Below are positions 1 to 52,552 of a DNA stretch of 64,000 nt, piece after piece; within the stretch, counting starts at the first letter, position 1; the number at the start of each line of letters is the position of its first letter. This DNA comes from Hysterangium stoloniferum (Eukaryota > Basidiomycota > Agaricomycetes > Hysterangiales > Hysterangiaceae), in the NCBI GenBank assembly GCA_015178975.1, contig WHVD01000026.1, forward strand, positions 620,001 to 684,000. The letters run 5' to 3'. Position numbers and translations under genes: made by a program. A model generated the notes under the pieces. The model saw only the letters and a program-made list of their open reading frames with translations, was not told the origin of the DNA and did no database searches.

Positions 1-1028
1 AGTCATGTTCTTGTACACTAGTCCTGTTTTAACCATTATCAATATCTAATACTCCACATCCAGATCATCTCATACAGCCTCTCAGAAGAGTTAACCTCTC
101 CCACTCTTTCCATGCTTGAAATCCCATCACTGGAGAAGCTACTGAGATAGATGTTGGTGACTTTGGAATGATTCATGTTGAATTGTAAATTATCAGGTTG
201 CCAATTTGTCTGAACTGCACCCTTGAGCTATGAGTATCATATCACAATGGGAGCCAATATTGTGTTATTGTCAACCATTGTGGGAAATACATGCTGTTAG
301 ATGATATCGTCAACATCAATGGTTGAGGTAATGTATCATTGCAATACTAGTAGGAAACTAAGTCAGTGGGAAGAGAATTGAAGCTGAATCATGTTGCTGC
401 TATGGCCAATTATCCAATGGTTTAGAAAACATTTGCATTTGTAGGTAATGAAAACCAAAAGCCACAAAGCCACAATCACGTAACTCAAATTACCAGTATA
501 GGTACATAGCATGGACCCTTCCCCCCCCACCCCCGGGTGGGCAAGAAAAATACACGACATATAGAAAACAAAAGAAAGTGAGTCAAAGCTTTATATAAAA
601 GGCTCTGCTAATCATTACATACCCCTAGTTCCGCTCATTTGTGGGGATTTAAGAACATTATATGAGTACAGTAGGTGAAGTGAAAACAATCTCGTCCGAT
701 TTGCCGTGAAGGTTCGGGATCTAATCAACCCGTCGCTAATGGGAGCAGCTCATGACCGATATCTGGAAGAAATATATTGAAGGTAACAACAAATGGCATA
801 ATGTGCCAAATAAATGTGGATGTAACAGTGGTAGAGTTTCACCATTTGACCACTTATAAACTATATTGTGAGACTACAATGTTCTTAATAGTCCGTGTCT
901 ACCCATTTGAAACATCGAAGCCCGAATATGATATCCTTCATGAAATGTATTAGATTCTCATCCCATTATGAAACGCTGCACTTTGCTCTGAAAGCTTCGC
1001 TAGGGCCGATACTCGGCTGAATCAAACG
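1..1028. other. No supportable gene; 3' flank of the HEAT-repeat gene
   Basis: I see no coding region here. The short open frames have no recognisable motif. From about 960 the sequence becomes a diverged copy of the 166-bp cassette whose reading frame closes at 1029-1031, so the left part is probably the 3' untranslated and downstream region of the minus-strand gene. A C-run around 521-535 is the only simple-sequence feature. Confidence 0.5.
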
Positions 1029-4000
1029 TCATCGGTTAGAGTCCTTCAAAAATGTAGGAATGTCGGGAATGACACCCGCAATGGCGGGTGAAAGTTCGGC
1101 TGTTGTCAAATGTCAGCTGGATTCCAATCTAATTATCACCCACTCCACCTTGCTCTGAAAGCTTCGCTAGTGCCGAAACTCCCGAGGATCGAACGTCCTC
1201 GTCAGAGTCCTTCAAAAGTGCAACAATGTCCTGAATGACACCTGCAATGGCCGTTCTAAATTCGCCTGTCGTCAAATGTCAGCTGGATTCCAATCTAATT
1301 ATCACCCACTCCACCTTGCTCTGAAAGCTTCGCTAGTGCCGAAACTCCCGAGGATCGAACGACCTCGTCAGAGTCCTTCAAAAGTGCAACAATGTCCAGA
1401 ATGACACCCGCAATGGCCGTTCTAAATTCGCCTGTCGTCAAATGTCAGCTGGATTCCAATCTAATTATCACCCACTCCACCTTGCTCTGAAAGCTTCGCT
1501 AGTGCCGAAACTCCCGAGGATCGAGCGTACCTGCCAGAGTCCTTCAAAAGTGCAACAATGTCCGGAATGACACCCGCAATGGCCGTTCTAAATTCGCCTG
1601 TCGTCAAATGTCAGCTGGATTCCAATCTAATTATCACCCACTCCACCTTGCTCTGAAAGCTTCGCTAGTGCCGAAACTCCCGAGGATCGAACGTCCTCGT
1701 CAGAGTCCTTCAAAAGTGCAACAATGTCCTGAATGACACCCGCAATGGCCGTTCTAAATTCGCCTGTCGTCAAATGTCAGCTGGATTCCAATCTAATTAT
1801 CACCCACTCCACCTTGCTCTGAAAGCTTCGCTAGTGCCGAAACTCCCGAGGATCGAACGTCCTCGTCAGAGTCCTTCAAAAGTGCAACAATGTCCTGAAT
1901 GACACCCGCAATGGCCGTTCTAAATTCGCCTGTCGTCAAATGTCAGCTGGATTCCAATCTAATTATCACCCACTCCACCTTGCTCTGAAAGCTTCGCTAG
2001 TGCCGAAACTCCCGAGGATCGAACGACCTCGTCAGAGTCCTTCAAAAGTGCAACAATGTCCAGAATGACACCCGCAATGGCCGTTCTAAATTCGACTGTC
2101 GTCAAATGTCAGCTGGATTCCAATCTAATTATCACCCACTCCACCTTGCTCTGAAAGCTTCGCTAGTGCCGAAACTCCCGAGGATCGAACGTCCTCGTCA
2201 GAGTCCTTCAAAAGTACAACAATCTCCGGAATGACACCCGCAATGGCCGTTCTAAATTCGCCTGTTGTCAAATGTCAGCTGGATTCCAATCTAATTATCA
2301 CCCACTCCACCTTGCTCTGAAAGCTTCGCTAGTGCCGAAACTCCCGAGGATCGAGCGTACCTGCCAGAGTCCTTCAAAAGTGCAACAATGTCCGGAATGA
2401 CACCCGCAATGGCCGTTCTAAATTCGCCTGTCGTCAAATGTCAGCTGGATTCCAATCTAATTATCACCCACTCCACCTTGCTCTGAAAGCTTCGCTAGTG
2501 CCGAAACTCCCGAGGATCGAACGTCCTCGTCAGAGTCCTTCAAAAGTACAACAATCTCCGGAATGACACCCGCAATGGCCGTTCTAAATTCGCCTGTCGT
2601 CAAATGTCAGCTGGATTCCAATCTAATTATCACCCACTCCACCTTGCTCTGAAAGCTTCGCTAGTGCCCAAACTCCCGAGGATCGAACGTACCTGCCAGA
2701 GTCCTTCAAAAGTGCAACAATCTCCGGAATGGCATGCGCAATGGCCGTTCGAAATTCGCCTGTCGTCAAATGTCAGCTGGATTCTGATCTAATTATCACC
2801 CACTCCACCTTGCTCTGAAAGCTTCGCTAGTGCCGAAACTCCCGAGGATCGAACGTCCTCGTCAGAGTCCTTCAAAAGTACAACAATCTCCGGAATGACA
2901 CCCGCAATGGCCGTTCTAAATTCGCCTGTTGTCAAATGTCAGCTGGATTCCAATCTAATTATCACCCACTCCACCTTGCTCTGAAAGCTTCGCTAGTGCC
3001 GAAACTCCCGAGGATCGAGCGTACCTGCCAGAGTCCTTCAAAAGTGCAACAATGTCCGGAATGACACCCGCAATGGCCGTTCTAAATTCGCCTGTCGTCA
3101 AATATCAGCTGGATTCTGATCTAATTATCACCCACTCCACCTTGCTCTGAAAGCTTCGCTAGTGCCCAAACTCCCGAGGATCGAACGTACCTGCCAGAGT
3201 CCTTCAAAAGTGCAACAATCTCCGGAATGGCATGCGCAATGGCCGTTCGAAATTCGCCTGTCGTCAAATGTCAGCTGGATTCTGATCTAATTATCACCCA
3301 CTCCACCTTGCTCTGAAAGCTTCGCTAGTGCCGAAACTCCCGAGGATCGAACGTCCTCGTCAGAGTCCTTCAAAAGTGCAACAATGTCCTGAATGACACC
3401 CGCAATGGCCGGTCTAAATTCGCCTGTCGTCAAATGTCAGCTGGATTCCAATCTAATTATCACCCACTCCACCTTGCTCTGAAAGCTTCGCTAGTGCCGA
3501 AACTCCCGAGAATCGAACGACCTCGTCAGAGCCCTTCAAAAGTGCAACAATGTCCGGAATGGCGCCTGCAATCGCCGTTCGAAATTCGCCTGTCGTCAAA
3601 TGTCAGCTGGATTCTGATCTAATTATCACCCACTCCACCTTGCTCTGAAAGCTTCGCTAGTGCCGAAACTCCCGAGGATCGAACGTCCTCGTCAGAGTCC
3701 TTCAAAAGTACAACAATCTCCGGAATGACACCCGCAATGGCCGTTCTAAATTCGCCTGTCGTCAAATGTCAGCTGGATTCCAATCTAATTATCACCCACT
3801 CCACCTTGCTCTGAAAGCTTCGCTAGTGCCGAAACTCCCGAGGATCGAACGTCCTCGTCAGAGTCCTTCAAAAGTACAACAATCTCCGGAATGACACCCG
3901 CAATGGCCGTTCTAAATTCGCCTGTCGTCAAATGTCAGCTGGATTCCAATCTAATTATCACCCACTCCACCTTGCTCTGAAAGCTTCGCTAGTGCCCAAA

Positions 4001-4111
4001 CTCCCGAGGATCGAACGTACCTGCCAGAGTCCTTCAAAAGTGCAACAATGTCCGGAATGGCGCCTGCAATCGCCGTTCGAAATTCGCCTGTCATCAAATG
4101 TCAGCTGGATT
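982..4111 (-). repeat. Tandem array of 166-bp exon-intron cassettes (18 full plus 1 degenerate)
   Basis: The string tgctctgaaa recurs at 984, 1151, 1317, 1483 and so on to 3973, with a constant 166-bp step after the first. On the minus strand each unit is a 117-bp HEAT-coding exon followed by a 49-bp intron. The intron begins GTGGAGTGGG, carries CAGCTGACAT as branch site and ends GACGACAG. Exons and introns are about equally conserved, so the whole cassette was duplicated. Unit variants alternate in a patterned way (see findings), which suggests unequal crossing-over of blocks of several units. Confidence 0.93.
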
Positions 4112-5893
4112 GCTATCCCATGATCACACCGCACCTTCAACATCAAGACTCACTCCTTTACCACCGGTCCCACCGTGTGCCGGTGGCTCGCTTGGTGACT
4201 CTTCATTGTCAAGTCGTGACCCCAACACCACGATAGTGCGTAGCCAACCTGATTGTGAAATATGGATAATCACGATGAGGATATAAAGATGCTCAACTCA
4301 CTTAGTGGCTGATAATGATGGTAGTTCAAGATGAAGTAACCTAGGAACATCATAACTGCCAGTACTGCAACAGTAGTTATCCACACGCCATTAGCTTGTG
4401 CGTCTATTGTAAGGCAGACGATGGAGATAAAGAAGCAGGAGATACCGACTATGGTAAAAACTGCCGCTACTGCTCCTACCATTAACCACCTTGACAGGCG
4501 TGCCCCAAGGTTATCCGCGGCAAAAAGAAACTTGGCTGGCTCCATTCCGAGGTCTTCCCAGGCTTTCATTGCGGCTGTCGCCTCGGCCGTGGTGTCAGCG
4601 GGTAACATTTTATTAGTTGTTTGGGTGGCGGAAGTATGGGTGGTGGCGGAAGCACGAGCGTCGGAAGCACGAGCGGCAGCGATGTCGGAGGCATCAACGG
4701 CGGCGGCATGAGCAGTGGCGGCAGTATTATGAGCGGTGGCGGCAGTATCATGAGCAATGGCGGCAGTATCATGAACGGTGACGGCAGTATCATGAGCGGT
4801 GGCGGCAGTATCATGAGCAGTGGCGGCAGTATCATATGCGGTGGCGGCAGTATCATATGCGACGGCGGCGGTATCATAAGCGACGGCGGCGGTATCATGA
4901 GCGGCGGCGGCATGTCGAGCGGCAGCGGCGGCGGCATTATGATCGGCGACGGCGGCGGCAGCATAAACGACGGAGACGATGGCATCATCATCATCATCAT
5001 CATCATCATGAGGGTTGGTATCACAAGGAGCGGCGGCATCATGAGCGTCAGCGGCCTGATTGGCTGCAGCATCATGAGCGTCGGCGGCGGTGGCATGATT
5101 GGCAGCAGCATCACGAGCGGCTTTGGCGGCATCACAAGCGGCTTTGGCGGCATCACGAGCGGAGGTGGCTGCGGAGTAATGTACCTCGGTGACTGGTTTG
5201 GCGGCAGCGGCTGTGGCCTTGCTTTTGGCAGTCTTAGCAGCGGCGTGTGACCTTTCTGTCGCGGTTGAGGAACGGAAAACTGTGACTGAGGCATGGGCGG
5301 CTGCGGCCGAGGCATGGGCATAGGCGCGCTTAGCTGAGGCATGGGCATAAGCGTGCTCAGGTGCAGCCTTTCGCGAAAACCGTTGTGTTTGCGGCGCCTT
5401 AACAGTGTAATGGTAATCTGCTTCTCTGTGCAGCCACTTTGCAATCGTAGTAGTAGGTTCTGGATTGTTGCGGGTATGGAGTACTTTTTTCAGTTGATCC
5501 CATGTACTTCGCATTAGCACCTCGTGATATAGAGTAGACTGTTGCTCTTTTTTTATTAGAGCTGTTGCAGCCGCCAGACTCAGGAAGCCGGCCGCCACAT
5601 TGAAAACTATCCCCGTAAAGAAGAGTGCATTGGTAACCACGAGCAACGTTGTAGGATTGCCCTGTAGAAGAAAAGAGTTACCCAGCGTGGTGGCTTGAAC
5701 ACCGGCAACAAATGTCGACTTTCAGGAGTAAAAAGAGTGTATCAGCTATGATGGAGAGAGGAAACTTCAGAGATTGCGAACTCACGAGGGTCGATTGGGA
5801 AAGAAACCGTTCTCTCAAAGCTTTCACGGTATCAGGCTTCAAAGGCTCGTCGCCCCATGAAAGAAATCTCCCCACCAATCTCATGATTGTCAT
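1029..5893 (-). CDS. Membrane protein with Ala-rich linker and about 18 tandem HEAT repeats (22 exons, about 1262 aa)
   Basis: Not recognised as a named family. I predict exons 5893-5786, 5718-4302 and 4248-4162, then 18 exons of 117 bp (4087-3971 down to 1265-1149, stepping 166 bp), then 1099-1029. All junctions are GT-AG and in phase, giving 3789 nt. The N-terminus holds a hydrophobic stretch at about residues 60-91. It is followed by an Ala/His/Asp/Thr-rich low-complexity region, two hydrophobic segments (about 447-474 and 481-500), a short linker containing EPPAHGGT, and 18 repeats of 39 residues. Each repeat contains IPDIVALLKDS and VSALAKLSEQ, which form the paired helices of a HEAT/ARM repeat. 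The start ATG has an in-frame TAA 12 nt upstream. The 19th repeat is degenerate and contains the stop. Role inferred only: a membrane-anchored protein-interaction scaffold. The donor at 4162 could instead be at 4165. Confidence 0.75.
4700..4905 (-). repeat. 21-bp coding minisatellite (Ala-rich heptads)
   Basis: Within exon 2 of the HEAT gene a 21-bp unit of the type ggcggcagtatcatgagc repeats about nine times. On the minus strand it encodes heptads such as AHDTAAT and AYDTAAV. A run of eight Asp codons lies just upstream in the protein (about 4986-5012). The unit length keeps the frame, so copy number can change without breaking the protein. The same DNA gives Gly/Ser-rich and His/Arg-rich frames on the other strand, which I treat as shadows. 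Confidence 0.8.
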
Positions 5894-6344: not shown

Positions 6345-7482
6345 ATGACCTTTCAGGCCAAACTTAAATATAAAACGCCTTTCGAAAAGAAAAAACTACT
6401 CGACAGGCTTTTCGACAGGTTTCTTGACACAAATTGGAAATGCCGCTCTGCGGCAATTTCTGAGGAAGTCCGTCAAGGTACGTTTTATGAAATTGTGAGT
6501 TTTTTTACTAGTTTTAACGAAATTAGGAGAAAAAACTCGCCACCTCCACATTCTAGTCGAATATGACACATCCAAAATTGTCTTTCGTTGCTTCACTTGG
6601 AGCCAGGACAATAATCTTACACCCAAGATCGAGGAGATCGCTGATACGAAACGCAATTATAATACAGACGAGTCGCCTCGGTTTGCCGTATCTCCCAAGC
6701 AATGTCACGCAGCCATCATGTACAAAGCAGAAGTGAGTCTGGTGACTACAGACAACAATCATTACTTCTGCAGACCCCAGGGGGGGCTCGGGCAACATTT
6801 GTTATGTGCATCCCCGAATATGGTCCATCTCCTAATTACCCCACGTGGCACAGCTCTTCCCACATTTCGCAATTGCGTCACCCCACAAAATTGCGAAGCT
6901 GGTGTGGCGCAGGCACAAGGAGTAAACCTTGGAGAGAACATCGAAAAGATGGCCATTTCGGGTGATCGGGGTTATGCTGTATGCGCTCTGGCTGATACCA
7001 AGGTCGAAGTTTTCAGAGCGTCTGGGAAACCCCAACCCGAGTTGTTGAAGAAAGATAACGAGACCTCTTCAGCCACAGCAGTGGAGGTCGCCAAAGACGT
7101 GGCAGTTGTGGTATACAAGTACAGGTTCTATGTCTATAGGATCGGAGACGACTCTAACACGCTCCTATACTCCCAACCGGTCTCAGGAACAGCGTCGGTT
7201 GCCGCCATCTCGAGCAATACACAGTATATCGCCGTTGCGTGCACCACTGGAGATAAGGAAAGCAAAATCACCCTGTGGAAGTTAGTCACAGAACCAGCCA
7301 ATGGATCACTCACGTTCCTGGGTCAGTTTGACAGGCCCAAAGTTCGTGCCATGCGGTTTCTCACTGAGAACGATCTTGTAGTGGTTGCAAAGTGCAGTTG
7401 TTACTATTACATGTTGGGGTTACGAGGTGACAATCGAGAGTCAGCAAACGAGCCACCGGCACACGGTGGGACTTGGAGGTGA
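6345..7482 (+). CDS. Beta-propeller-like (WD40-like) protein, 2 exons, 362 aa
   Basis: Exon 1 is 6345-6477 and exon 2 is 6527-7482, joined across a 49-bp GT-AG intron (GTACGT ... AAATTAG) that keeps the frame open throughout. The start has a strong context (CACCATGACC). The N-terminal 45 residues are basic and helical. The rest is a series of beta-strand-like blocks such as MAISGDRGYAVCALAD, KITLWKLV and AVEVAKDVAVVVYKYRFYVY, as in WD40 or related propellers, but without clear WD dipeptides. The last 20 or so residues (GDN..ES..EPPAHGGT) match the linker in front of the HEAT array of the divergent neighbour. Function unknown. The protein may be a truncated relative of a larger repeat protein. 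Confidence 0.65.
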
Positions 7483-8203: not shown

Positions 8204-9803
8204 CAGTGACCCAAAAAGTGTCCGGATGTTTGGTGAAATTGGAAAGATGGGTTTGCAGCTCCAGAAATAAAATAGATAAAATTCTGAATAAATCAGAGGT
8301 AAGAGGCATACATCTGACCTACATGATGACATAAGCATGACATCATAGCTTTCCTTATCAGGGAAGTAGGAAATGAACAATGGACATGGTGCATCTGGAC
8401 ATTTTTTTTTGCTCTGTCAACTGATACATGAAACTCAACTAAGGTTCATATAACTGTGGGAATTTCTGGTCAGGTTCAACAATGTCATGTGACCACATGT
8501 TTAAATAACACATTTACATGAACCTTTGCCTCAATTCACCCCCCCACCACATGATGAAGAAGCACTCTACTGAAACAAGGCTCTCTGTCATTTCTCTTCT
8601 CCAGGAGGGTCACTCCTGCAGAACAATTGCTTCTAAACTTCATATTGGGCACTCTACAGTATCAGAAATTCGCTCCCAACTCCCTGGTCCACTTCCAACA
8701 CCTTCCAGAGGTTGTCCTCCCAAATTCTCCCCCAGGGATCATCACCACCTGGCTTGTTCTATCACCTCTGGACAAGTTGATAATGCCTCCCAAGCCAAGT
8801 CCCACCTCTCCCTCAATGTCTGCACACAGACAATTAGAAATGCATTGAAGAAAGAGAATTTGAAGGCTGTGGTGAAGGCCAAAAGACCTCTTCTTGCCTG
8901 TCGACACATCAAGGCTCAATATGAATTTGCTATCAAGTACCAGCATTGGACTGAGGAGGACTGGTTTAGGGTTATCTTCTCAGATGAGACCAAAATCAAT
9001 TGTTTGGGCTCTGATGGGAGATTGTGGGTATGGAAAAGACCAGGTTCTGCACTCACTCAGCAGCATATCAATGGAACTATCAATTTGGAGGGGGGAGTCT
9101 AATGATTTGGGGATGTATGACAGCACATGGTGTGGGGTACATGTGCAAGATAGATGGGAGGATGGATGGGGAGATGTACAAGGACATATTGGAGGACTAT
9201 ATCTTCAAAACAGTGGAGTATTATGGGATGGACAGGGAAAGGTTTGTCTTCCAGCAGGACAATGACCCTAAACACACTTGCAAGTTGGCCAAGGATTGGT
9301 TCAAGGACCATCAGGTGGAGGTTTTAGACTGGCCTGCACAGTCTCCAAACCTGAATCCAATAGAACACTTATGGTGGGAGTTGAAGAGAAGGCTTGTAAC
9401 ATACCCTGAGGCACCCAAGAGCATATTGGAGCTCTGGGAGAGAGTGGAGGTGGAATGGGAGGGTATTCCAAGGGAGAAATGCCTTTAATTGATCAAGAGC
9501 ATGCCTAGAAGGGTTGCTGCAGTACTAAAGGCCAAGGGGGGGGGGGGGTACACTAAATACTGAAACTGGTAAAAACTAGTAATTAATTACCAGAGCAAAA
9601 AAAGTGTCTGGATGCACCATGTCCATTATTAATTTCCTACTTTCCTGATAAGGAAAGCTATTATGTCATGCTTATGTCATCATGTAGGTCAGATGTATAC
9701 CTCTTACCTCTGATTTATTCAGAATTTTATCTATTTTATTTCTGGAGCTGTAAACCCATCTTTCCAATTTCACCAAACATCTGGACACTTTTTTGGGTCA
9801 CTA
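8204..9803 (+). mobile_element. Tc1/mariner element 1 with about 215-bp terminal inverted repeats
   Basis: The element starts CAGTGACCC at 8204 after TA and ends GGGTCACTA at 9803 before TA, giving the TA target duplication typical of the superfamily. The terminal inverted repeats run about 8204-8418 and 9590-9803 and match almost throughout (the blocks around gacataagcatgac and ttcaccaaacat are clear). One base differs at the very tip. The only gene is a broken transposase on the plus strand. Confidence 0.9.
8518..9563 (+). pseudogene. Tc1-type DDE transposase, frameshifted
   Basis: The N-terminal part carries a helix-turn-helix region (SVISLLQEGHSCRTIASKL) and the first catalytic Asp in IFSDETKI. 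The reading frame shifts near 9085-9100 in a run of six G and continues in the frame holding FQQDNDPKHT (second Asp) and LNPIEHLWWELKRR (Glu). A single TAA at 9486-9488 interrupts the end, after which the frame continues with MPRRVAAVLKAK, a 13-G run coding glycines, and a stop at 9561. The nearest ATG with good context is 8551. The gene is therefore broken by one frameshift and one stop. Confidence 0.88.
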
Positions 9804-10688: not shown

Positions 10689-11752
10689 TTAGTGGTAGAA
10701 AAATATTTGAGATTTTTGTGATGTCGTGGAACCTTCGAGGTAATGACACCAATATTTGAAAGCTTCAAAAATTGCCAAAAGTTCCTTATCATGAATGTCA
10801 TAGTTGAGCTCGGACACTGAAAGTGTCCAAGAAAGAAATGCAACCAGATGAACTTCACCATCAGAATCTTGAATGGAAAGAATCATGGCAATTGCATAAT
10901 CGGAAGCATCGGTTTCCACAATAATCAGAACATCAGGTTTCCAATGAGAAAGAATTGGGGTGGAAGTGAATGCACTTTTCAAAGTCTGGAAAGCAGAGCG
11001 GCATTTGTCATCAAAGACCCATGGTTGAGATTTACAGGTAAGACGAGTGAGCGGTATTGTAATATCTGAGTAATTCCGAATGAAACGATAGTAAAAGTTT
11101 GTGAAACCTAAAAATGACTGAATGTCTTTGACTTTCCGTGGTTCGGGCCAATCACGGACAACTTGAACCTTAGTTTCATCCATATGGAGACCCTCGGGTC
11201 CAATAATGAAACCTAAGTATTCAATAGAATCTATGTCAAAGTAGCACTTTTTACCATTGGCAAAAAGGCCATGTTTACAGAGTCTTTGGAAGACTTCACG
11301 GACTTGTTCATCGTGAAGAGCGGGATCCTCGGAAAATACCAAAATGTCATCCAAATGGACTATAACACATACATCAAGCATGTCGGAAAATATATCATTA
11401 ACAAAATCTTGAAAGGCGGAAGAGGCGTTGGTAAGACTGAACGGCATAACCAACCATTCAAAGGATCCATAACGAGTTCGAAAAGCAGTTTCCATTCGTC
11501 GCCCTCAGCAATTCAGACCAAATGATAGGCGTGTTTGAGGTCTATTTTGGTGTAGATCCGTGCTTTCCGTGGGGCATCAAGTAAGTCGGTAATGAGTGGA
11601 AGTGGGTACTTATCTTTCTGTGTGATGGAATTTAATCCTCTGAAATCGACACAGAGTCGAAGGGAACTATCCTTCTTTTTGACGAAAAGGATGGGTGCTC
11701 CATACAGAGACTTTGAGGGACAGATAAAACCTATTGACAGATGTTCATCCAA
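10689..11752 (-). pseudogene. Gypsy 1 pol: reverse transcriptase and RNase H
   Basis: Two frames cover the domain. 11752-11513 holds APILFVKKKDSSLRLCVDFR and KIDLKHAYH. 11495-10689 holds the catalytic motif HLDDILVFSED (normally YxDD) and the RNase H start VETDASDYAIAM. Substitution of Tyr by His before LDD and the break near 11500 mark it as inactive or nearly so. Confidence 0.88.
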
Positions 11753-18262: not shown

Positions 18263-19413
18263 AGTGAGCGCAGGAATGTAAGCTTGTCCCTGCGCAAGGA
18301 AAGTAAGAGGCCTAGAATCCAATACCCTCGTCCCAGTCGTCTGATGAAGGAGGATACTACGATCCTTTATCAAAAATGGGATCCTCCCAGTGGTTACTCT
18401 AGCATAGGAGTTGTAGCGCTCCATGTTTTTGGTCATGTAGGAACTCCCGATTCACCCGAACGTGTTAAATTCGAATGGACACGGGAGCGGATCTTTCCCT
18501 TATATCGGAGGAATTCTACAAGGGGCTGCAGGGCATATATAAGTTGAAACAAGGACTCAAGTTGCGTCTAATCCAGCTCACGGGTAACGCTAAGGTTATC
18601 GGATATGTTAATATTCCTATTTACCTGGAGGACGACAGTGGAATGTTACTGAAGTTCGCGGCAGAAACTTATGTCGTTAGAGGAATGACGGTGCCAATTC
18701 TTTTAGGAGAAGACTTCCATAGTAATTACGAAATCGGTACTCTAAGAGATCAGCCATTGGGATCTAGACTTATTCTCCTGGGACGACAGGGTTTTATTCC
18801 AGCCAGTTCTTCTAAGGAACCTCAACCTTTGACCTTCACCATCAATAAGGCCCCTTTCGGGAAGCATGAGAAGGAGCAACCCAAGCTCACCTCTCTCCCC
18901 GATAAAGGCGTGTATACTGAAAGAGTCGCACGAGCCTTGGAGGATTGCACTATCGATCCAGAGTCAGCCAGACTAGTGCCTATTTTTGTTGAAGATCTAA
19001 AGGGCGAGGAATGGATTGTTGAAGGAATTGTATTGCAAAATGAGGACGGTTCCATATTAGCCACACCAATCACAGCAATTTCAAGGAATAGTGCGGCAGT
19101 ACCCTTAGCCAATCCATCGCTAACCCCTAAGACTATCCGACGAGGGGAGACAATAGGGATAATTCATGACCCCACTCGTTGGGCTCACAAGCCCAGGTCA
19201 CTTGAGGAGAAAGGTTTAATGGCAGCCGGCGTGACCAAGATCGCACACCTTATCAAAGTCTCTCTCAACTTGAGGAGGACCGTCAATTCACCTCAGAGAG
19301 GCCTAAGCCACCTGTTGAACCAGAGATTGCGGACGATTTCGAACTGCCTGGTCCTAAGACGGCTGCGGTGGCTGATAATGAGAAACTTGCCTCAGAGGAT
19401 CTTCACAAGCTAG
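18263..19413 (+). pseudogene. Chromovirus aspartic protease region
   Basis: After the TGA at 18260 the same frame continues (RIQYPRPSRLMKEDTTILY) to about 18470. A single-base frameshift then leads to the active-site MDTGADLSLISEEFYKGL at 18475, the D-T-G-A loop of retropepsins. The string VPILLGEDFHSNYEIG matches the second conserved protease block. The frame closes at 19413 and overlaps the reverse transcriptase frame by about 45 bp. Confidence 0.85.
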
Positions 19414-21140
19414 TCAACTTGGGACCAGATATACCAACGGAAGTCCTGCCACGTCTCAGATCAGTTTTGACTGAGAATGTTAAGGCTTTCAGAGTCGACG
19501 GATGGTTAGGGCAAGTGGAATGTAGAGTCCCTGTCCCCTTGAAAGAGGGAGCCCAGCCCATATCCATGCCTATGTTCCCTTCGTCCCCTGCCAATAGGAG
19601 AGTTATAGATGAGCAAATGGATACCTGGTTCGAACAGGGTGTCATTGAGCCATCTAAAAGCCCCTGGGGAGCACCAGCCTTTGTAGTATATCGCAATGGT
19701 AAACCGCGGGTGGTCATCAACTATCGGAAACTTAATCATCTCACTGTTCCAGACGAATTCCCTTTACCACGTCAATCGGAGATCATGCAGGTGCTGTCGG
19801 GATCAAATGTTCTTTCTTCTTTCGATGCGCTAGCTGGGTTTACTCAATTAGAAATGTTGGAGGACGATAAGCCCAAAACAGCCTTCAGATCCCATAGAGG
19901 GCTGTGGCAATTTAAGAGGATGCCATTCGGGCTCAGAAACGGCCCCTCCACATTTCAGCGCGTCATGCAAACAGTCTTAGCACCCTACTTGTGGATTTTT
20001 TGTCTAGTCTACATCGATGACATAGTCATATTCTCTAATAACTGGGATGATCATTTGCTTCACCTGAATCAGGTGCTTGGCGCTATCGCTTTGGCCGGTA
20101 TCACTCTCTCTCCCAAGAAATGTTTTATCGGATATAATTTGATCTTGTTGTTGGGTCATAAAGTATCCAGGTTGGGTTTTTCGACCCATCAAGAGAAAGT
20201 TTGCGCTATATTGGAACTGGCCCCACCCACTAAGGTCTCTGAACTACAATGGTTCCTTGGAATGGTCCTTTACTTTTCGGCATATATACCATTCTATTCA
20301 TGGATGGTGTCCCCTTTATTCTCGCTCCTAAAAAAGGGAACACCCTGGACGTGGACCGCTGAACATGTCCAAGTTTATGAGGATGTTAAAATCGCACTAG
20401 GATCAGCACCAGTGTGGGGACATCCAGTTAGTGGGATGCCCTATCGATTGTATACGGACGCTTCGGATTTTGCCTTAGGTTGTTGTCTCCAACAAGTCCA
20501 GAAGATGGCTTTAGGAGACTTGATGGACACTAAAATCTATGCCCAAGCCAAGTTAGCTTTTGACCGTGCGCAGGATGTGCCATCCTTTGTTCATCGGTAC
20601 AAAACCAAACAGCCTGAGATTGAGTGGTCGGATTCATGGGGACCCACTTTTGAGGTGACCGAAGTTACCGTTGAACGAGTCATTGCATATTGGAGTCGCA
20701 CGCTGAAAAGCGCTGAACGTAACTATTCTGCCACTGAACGGGAAGCGTTAGCAGCAAAGGAGGGACTAGTCCACTTCCAACCCTTCATTGAAGGTGAACA
20801 CGTTCTACTCATTACGGACCATGCAGCTCTGCAATGGGCTAGATTGTACGAGAACACTAATCGTCGACTAGCCGCATGGGGGGCGATATACGCTGCATTT
20901 CCAGGTCTCGAAATTTTACATCGAGCAGGAAGAGTTCACAGTAACGTGGACCCATTGTCCAGACTTCCTCGGGTACCAGCCTTTGTGAGCCCTATTAGAG
21001 ATGATTTACAAGCTATCACCTCGACCTCTATGGACAAAAGCACTGAGGAAAAACTATGGAAGGACAAACCTGCTAAGAAGGCGGTCTTCTCGATCATAAA
21101 CGATTCCATGGAACCTTTTGGAGTAACTCAGAAGGTTTGA
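19368..21140 (+). pseudogene. Chromovirus reverse transcriptase and RNase H
   Basis: A 590-residue open stretch. The fingers/palm blocks PWGAPAFVVYRNGKPRVVIN and MPFGLRNGPSTFQRVM precede the catalytic motif YIDDIVIF. RNase H follows with YTDASDFALGCCLQQ and ALQWARLYENTNRRLAAW. The frame ends at a TGA (21138) that is in frame with the integrase reading frame, so a single CGA-to-TGA change would explain the split. Catalytic residues are intact. Confidence 0.93.
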
Positions 21141-52058: not shown

Positions 52059-52363
52059 AGAAAGTCATGAGAAATGCCTGAAGTAAAACTCACCTATTTA
52101 TATCCTTTAGGACATTGTCACACAGTGTCTGTGGCTCATAAAATAGTAGGAAGGACCCTGCTCTGCCTTTGGCAGTGAATGGTGTAAACTGGCCTGGATG
52201 AGGGTGATAGAGATGATGTTAGGGTATGTACATGGCGGGTCTCCAGATAAACCCACAGAATATCCGGTAGGACTTGGCTTCAGCTTATAGGCTGCACCCT
52301 CACAAGATCGTGTTGTCCAATTTCAGAAGGGCGGACGGGAATCCTGGGGAGTCCGGGCAGGGT

Positions 52364-52552
52364 TCGTGGGTCGAGGGGTCATGGATCAGAGGTTGTGGGT
52401 CAAGGGGTCATGGGTCAGAGGTTGTGGGTCGAGGGGTCATGGGTCAGAGGTTGTGGGTCGAGGGGTCATGGGTCAGAGGTTGTGGGTCGAGGGGTCATGG
52501 GTCAGAGGTCGTGGGTCGAGGGGTCATGGGTCAGAGGTCGTGGGTCAAGATA
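52364..52552 (+). repeat. 29-bp minisatellite inside LTR B (about 6 copies)
   Basis: The unit gtgggtcgaggggtcatggg followed by tcagaggtt repeats about six times. LTR A has only a poor version of this stretch, so the expansion is specific to LTR B. The resulting Gly/Ser/Arg frames are not genes. Confidence 0.88.

Follow-up and report, generated by a model that had tools for sequence, protein, structure and literature searches.

The closest precedent for the locus described here is found in the 90-bp-exon leucine-rich repeat (LRR) genes of Tetrahymena, in which many tandem cassettes of a fixed-length exon and an intron follow each other in one phase (PMC6564038, in excerpt). In the excerpted text such fixed-length exon arrays are described as having possibly evolved once, in Tetrahymena, and its authors are unaware of another eukaryote with such uniformity (PMC6564038). 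Here we analyzed a stretch of 64,000 nucleotides (the window) on contig C179 of the genome of Hysterangium stoloniferum (111 Mb, 554 contigs), an ectomycorrhizal member of the Hysterangiales (PMC7550596, in excerpt), which carries a tandem array with a period of 166 bp resembling a satellite. We consider it likely that this 'satellite' consists of HEAT coding cassettes belonging to a large family with an evolving recognition solenoid, and that the window copy is young and joined to another gene. In the excerpts seen of the open-licence PMC literature we found no description of a fungal family with one repeat per exon or, under the name DUF6535, of these genes.

Using Tandem Repeats Finder the array was located at 979-4111 (period 166, 18.9 copies, 94% match). 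On the minus strand 1149-4087 comprises 18 units of exactly 166 bp, with HEAT exons starting at 4087, 3921 and so on down to 1265 in exact 166-bp steps, and each unit is made of a 117-nt phase-1 exon for a 39-residue HEAT repeat and a 49-nt GT-AG intron. All 18 HEAT exons have an AG before and a GT after them, are 117 nt long and free of stops, and encode GEFRTAIAGVIPDIVALLKDSDEDVRSSGVSALAKLSEQ or a close variant, while the 18 introns behind them are 49 nt each and end with GACAG or AACAG. Pfam analysis of six spliced units gave matches to HEAT (PF02985, 8.4e-23, 78.7 bits with a cut-off of 23.5) and HEAT_2 (PF13646, 1.3e-26, 93.2 bits with a cut-off of 27.7), and the units have relatives in the PDB, matched by sequence. 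Identical units stand at a distance from each other (2 = 10 = 12, 3 = 8, 7 = 11), as expected from block duplication or conversion, and also as neighbours (14 = 15).

A sequence-only reading of the window had interpreted the array as 18 HEAT exons, each with its own 49-bp intron, and had proposed a HEAT profile search of the spliced product as a check. The interpretation is supported by this search and 20 loci of the same genome agree with it. The same reading had claimed GT-AG ends and a CTGAC motif for every unit, of which the former holds throughout and the latter for 17/18 introns, the remaining one having CTGAT. The predicted gene (Table 1) has 22 exons in one frame with phase 1 at every array joint, and amounts to 3816 nt including the stop, or 1271 aa, with a degenerate 19th unit that runs into the TGA at 1029. 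The units are in phase with the upstream exons as claimed before, but the total of 3789 nt given then is 27 nt shorter than ours, a difference that would result if the linker were spliced at 4162 and not at 4135. Both sites are in phase and we prefer 4135 for the model, because its 47-nt intron (GTGCGGTGTGATC...GACAG) starts and ends like the introns of other loci.

A pattern composed of intron end and exon start, with at most three mismatches, occurs 1152 times in the genome and 0 times with the reversed control. As family sample we used 20 fetched loci (the window and 19 others) with 484 HEAT units identified by profile search. Their unit spacing is mostly 164-166 bp and they contain 12 to 32 units per locus, the arrays of L022 and L025 reaching the end of the fetched stretch. 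A DUF6535 match lies upstream on the same strand in, or at most 1 kb from, 15 of the 19 other loci (for L019 with a Pfam E-value of 2.1e-34) and none is listed for L010, L017, L023 and L024. Behind DUF6535 in these 15 loci 15-32 units were seen, some arrays being cut by the fetched stretch, and the genome as a whole has 75 DUF6535 matches, some of which are pieces of one gene. Close paralogs differ by whole units, as the unit-by-unit alignment of L019 and L026 (27 vs 24 units) and of L015 and L016 (25 vs 27 units) showed, with matched units on both sides. This bears out the earlier idea of a cassette that can be gained or lost without a frameshift, and we infer that unequal crossover is the agent of these differences.

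Between scored units there are also 17 gaps of 525-564 nt, corresponding to a mid-array spacer. This spacer is conserved (e.g. L012-L028), several loci have an open stretch like EFLPLVRAEIRAAVG.. that is coding in the NCBI models too, and it is possibly a hinge exon. The loci L017 and L023 are 98.7% identical over 5.6 kb on different contigs, both have broken exons and L023 carries an insertion of ~980 bp within a HEAT exon; they are either alleles or recent duplicates.

For the question of splicing 440 of the 484 units were scored, the other 44 being 29 first or last partial units, nine internal partial units and six full-length units without AG or GT/GC, and the profile search may favour intact exons. 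Exon length is exactly 117 nt in 429/440 units, with seven of the 11 deviating exons differing by a non-multiple of three. The introns shorter than 80 nt (n = 389) include 290 of 49 nt and 99 of another length, 87 of them in another frame class, and per base, exons have 24 times fewer length variants than introns (Fisher p 4e-24). Such a fixed exon length is hard to explain unless the introns, which drift in length and frame class, are spliced. Stops occur in the coding frame of nine of 429 exons, compared to 388 and 409 for the other two frames. No broken exon is present in 11 of the 20 loci (287 exons), and 11 of the 16 broken exons found belong to L010, L017, L023 and L024, one more being the 19th unit of the window. 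Third-party protein models of the relatives contain the motif of the spliced joint 31 times in seven proteins. Splicing of the introns of this family is strongly implied by these patterns.

Three other ways of reading the units were rejected. Unspliced read-through is ruled out, as the 166-bp step rotates the frame and a retained intron leads to a stop in the intron itself or in the next exon in 349 of 378 cases. A shift of the 5' splice site by five bases downstream, to GTGGGT in the window, is rejected as well, since the resulting exon of 122 nt breaks the frame. The site nine bases downstream would give an exon of 126 nt, which preserves the frame in the window. It would not do so in relatives like L019, where the 47- and 49-nt introns differ by 2 nt upstream of this site.

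Introns and exons of the family also differ in divergence. Introns were stated by the sequence-only reading to be as conserved as exons, which has to be corrected, since they are more conserved: nucleotide diversity (pi) in the window array is 0.023 for introns and 0.056 for exons, and introns are less diverged than exons in 18/19 loci and less than third codon positions again in 18/19. The locus counts are based on introns of 44-58 nt; restriction to introns of exactly 49 nt, which favours similar introns, gave lower intron divergence in 17/18 loci. Part of this low divergence may be due to the splice signals contained in such short introns.

Within the exons the variation is concentrated at few positions. 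Residue entropy in 402 exons outside the window is 2.93 and 2.97 bits at codons 23 and 24, respectively. Codon rates were determined from 115 position-matched unit pairs (at least 85% identity, 117-nt exons, stop-free) of seven disjoint gene pairs from 14 of the 19 other loci. Nonsynonymous change exceeds the synonymous rate at codon 23 (3.4x), codon 24 (3.3x) and codon 28 (2.3x), compared to 0.19x at the conserved Phe 3 and 0.34x at Gln 39, and for codons 23-24 taken together 163 nonsynonymous changes were observed and 49 expected. In the register given by the G Y T A E Q motif in bGFP-A, codons 23, 24, 27, 28, 31 and 35 align with positions 18, 19, 22, 23, 26 and 30 of alphaRep. Exactly these are the randomised positions of alphaRep (Table 3 of PMC3754942, in excerpt), and in an alphaRep complex described there the partners make contact via concave faces bearing the variable residues. 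The three codons with the fastest change all belong to these six sites.

The window gene has an origin different from that of its relatives. From the five further genome matches of its N-terminal part two were fetched (L040 and L041), and no HEAT exon was detected in these two regions by profile search. DNA similarity to L040 stops at position 4186 of the window, and in L041, judged by eye, a short terminal exon stands in place of the linker, together with a GTGAGT..CAG intron of matching phase. The N-terminus of the window gene (547 aa) has no Pfam match and thus no DUF6535, just as no Pfam match was found for the protein of the C527 paralog. The array units are closest to those of L020, L027 and L028 among the fetched loci (88-92%), and the family's 3' flank follows here only 53 bp past the last unit (Table 1). 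It seems from these alignments that a piece of an array, cut at both ends, was joined to another gene, and the predicted window gene is a chimera of a putative membrane-protein gene and a truncated array. The frame link between the array and the upstream membrane-protein exons that had been claimed is retained in our model, but it represents an unusual chimera, as the relatives are mostly located behind DUF6535. A protein of the window gene was not found in the protein database, neither with the HEAT query at 409-1302 aa (among the matches listed) nor with the N-terminal query at 301-957 aa.

Table 1: Predicted parts of the window gene and associated segments (window positions).
Feature	Position	Strand	Remarks
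Exon 1, 108 nt, ATG at 5893	5786..5893	-	exon 1/exon 2 joint same in NCBI protein P0140 of the C527 paralog (..STL|STFVAGVQ..)
Exon 2, 1417 nt	4302..5718	-	five further genome matches of its N-terminal part
Exon 3 (linker), 114 nt, phase 1	4135..4248	-	similar to the short last exon of L041, a paralog; open into the array in the window gene
23-bp segment of linker	4167..4189	-	located at the chimera junction; only two genome copies (at most three mismatches), the second in inverted orientation at 7450-7472 (+)
Intron preceding HEAT exon 1, 47 nt, commoner family type (GTGCGGTGTGATC...GACAG)	4088..4134	-	
HEAT exon 1, 117 nt, 39 residues	3971..4087	-	
HEAT exons 2-18, 117 nt each, 49-nt GT-AG intron before each	1149..3970	-	exact 166-bp step
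Last 49-nt intron, HEAT exon 18 to terminal exon	1100..1148	-	
Terminal exon, 71 nt, degenerate 19th unit, TGA after DSNR	1029..1099	-	whole unit 118 nt, not 117
3' flank	821..930	-	81-89% similar to sequence 494-523 bp past the last unit in ten other loci; short matches in three more loci; here 53 bp past the last unit

Exon 2 has hydrophobic stretches near both ends (by eye), which flank an Ala/His/Asp-rich region of low complexity. It contains a 21-bp coding minisatellite at 4707-4912 (-), present in 9.8 copies and encoding an HDTAATA-like heptapeptide, as well as consecutive Asp codons at 4983-5009, and these two are a second length-variable coding repeat of the window gene. Outside the window, L042 (C179:611000-619000) includes four decayed HEAT units at ~615540-616135 (-), three of them with stops or frameshifts, and close to them lies an open reading frame (ORF) which we take to be a copia-type integrase from the way it reads. 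Within the window and beside the gene, transposase ORFs (HTH_Tnp_Tc3_2 and DDE_3) are located at 8509-9488 (+), and reverse transcriptase/RNase H ORFs at 10689-11504 (-) and 19206-21140 (+). The last part (..EPPAHGGTWR) of a 327-aa ORF without a Pfam match at 6499-7482 (+) has 34 bp in common with the linker exon (94%). A further tandem repeat of 29 bp (6.4 copies, 96% match) is present at 52361-52546.

For the family as a whole we propose that the cassette would be a 39-residue HEAT repeat on a 117-nt exon with phase 1 at both ends, together with its own short intron. Unequal crossover and gene conversion between cassettes would add, remove and homogenise repeats without a frameshift, selection would diversify the binding face, and the outcome would be a recognition solenoid that evolves quickly and is anchored to a membrane-type N-terminus. 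In the window, this family would be represented by a young array that was amplified recently and fused to another putative membrane-protein gene. As a tentative extension, which we regard as quite possible, the DUF6535-HEAT genes might represent a natural, alphaRep-like repertoire of recognition receptors for self/non-self or symbiont/parasite sensing, with exchangeable exon-intron cassettes, binding set by three hypervariable residues in each repeat, and arrays captured by other membrane-protein genes as in the window.

Several observations weigh against our interpretation. The unscored units include the nine internal partial ones and the six without AG or GT/GC, and the loci L010, L017, L023 and L024 are decaying. 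In the third-party models intron-derived peptides are matched five times, in two of the seven proteins, and the P0002 model on L024, the only locus for which the DNA was compared, leaves out 46 nt at one joint and continues through the intron at another. The usual 5' splice consensus is GTRAGT. The three commonest 5' splice sites of the family, GTGCGG (205), GTGCAG (58) and GTGGAG (24), which together account for 287 of the 389 introns, fit it poorly. L017/L023, one of the seven gene pairs, has no nonsynonymous change at all at codons 23-24, and gene conversion among units, which weakens the independence of the counts, can also make diversification look stronger than it is. The fusion model is carried by a chimeric junction, and a decayed array with three of four units broken lies ~5 kb downstream of the window gene. 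Finally, no selection signal is present in the window array itself (18 nonsynonymous and four synonymous variants, 0 stops; neutral p = 0.47), for which reason its pN/pS ratio (nonsynonymous to synonymous polymorphism) of 1.81 was set aside and not used as evidence. Expression and function of the window copy are both putative.

In the first rival explanation the family is coding, but the window array is not: a truncated HEAT gene piece would have landed behind a membrane-protein gene and been amplified there like a satellite. It fits the chimeric 5' junction, the truncated 3' end with the family flank after 53 bp instead of ~500 bp, exon variants in line with neutral expectation, the decayed array nearby, the lack of a protein within the searched length ranges and the transposon-derived ORFs in the vicinity. 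Opposed to it are the intact units and splice sites (18/18), the match of the linker exon to the terminal exon behind a phase-1 intron in L041, and the single frame held across 22 exons, and we see it as a possible but somewhat doubtful explanation. The open frame of all 18 units, noted by the sequence-only reading, carries little weight by itself, since these are young copies whose variants fit neutrality. The strong evidence for the predicted coding cassettes is provided by the other loci and not by the window array.

The hypervariable codons could also be unconstrained surface positions of an ordinary scaffold family without a recognition role, with recombination homogenising the arrays as a side effect. 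Variation is expected at the surface of HEAT repeats and gene conversion can mimic selection, but codons 23, 24 and 28 change at 2.3-3.4x the synonymous rate, which is beyond relaxed constraint alone, and they are found among the contact sites of alphaRep, making this explanation rather unlikely. A division into two genes, one for the membrane protein and one consisting of the HEAT array, also appears unlikely to us. It would agree with the C527 paralog, whose NCBI model ends with ..NYRRRQH before the linker and without HEAT, and with the two fetched paralog regions lacking HEAT exons, but in the window gene no stop interrupts the frame across linker and array, and the intron between the two is of the family type. 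Plain satellite DNA with an accidental open frame, to which the exact period and the near-identical copies might point, appears extremely improbable for the family in view of the HEAT profile match, the diverged relatives throughout the genome with fixed 117-nt exons and length-variable introns, and the DUF6535 upstream of these relatives.

If our interpretation as HEAT coding cassettes is correct, fixed-exon arrays would have originated independently in a fungus, in a version that differs in phase and length, and the cassette would be a genetic device that allows repeat number to change without a frameshift. With sites that are hypervariable repeat by repeat a recognition role becomes testable. 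Should the repertoire proposal hold true as well, capture of arrays by other membrane-protein genes, as in the window, would make new receptors. Such genes can be lost to repeat masking and to gene finders, and the window gene was not met within the searched protein lengths.

Among known systems, the protein P0107 from Mycena venus (807 aa) is similar in having DUF6535 followed by repeats of ~40 residues of the EFR...LSEQ type with a Pfam HEAT match, but its repeats are few and diverged. With the fungal NOD-like receptors (NLRs) carrying conserved WD, ANK or TPR repeats the family shares near-identical internal repeats, a changing repeat number, variable sites on the concave face and modular N-termini (PMC4986451, in excerpt). 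It differs from them by an N-terminus with DUF6535 or an unnamed membrane-type domain and by one intron per repeat. In Podospora the NLR repeats are located on uninterrupted exons. Neither NACHT nor NB-ARC was found in the Pfam scan of the pieces of the window model (0 families for the N-terminus, 24 for the six HEAT units) or of the N-terminus of L019, the relatives having been scanned in part. The likeness to alphaRep consists in the fast codons 23, 24 and 28 being its randomised positions 18, 19 and 23, whereas codons 27, 31 and 35 (positions 22, 26 and 30) are conserved or about neutral here (0.35x, 1.1x and 1.1x), and alphaRep is designed with a 31-residue step in contrast to a natural family with a 39-residue step (PMC3754942, in excerpt). 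Most features are shared with the Tetrahymena LRR genes, namely a fixed exon length that is a multiple of three, one intron phase, very many units, a species-specific expansion, unequal crossing over as the proposed mechanism, recognition of the repeats by repeat finders and transposons nearby (PMC6564038, in excerpt). The differences are a ciliate, LRR, phase 2 and 90-bp exons there and a fungus, HEAT, phase 1 and 117 bp here, introns of ~257 bp in T. thermophila (secondary peak at 122) compared to 49, and mostly purifying Ka/Ks (nonsynonymous to synonymous substitution) compared to three codons faster than the synonymous rate. The HEAT arrays are not members of the Tetrahymena family, but they work like its arrays.

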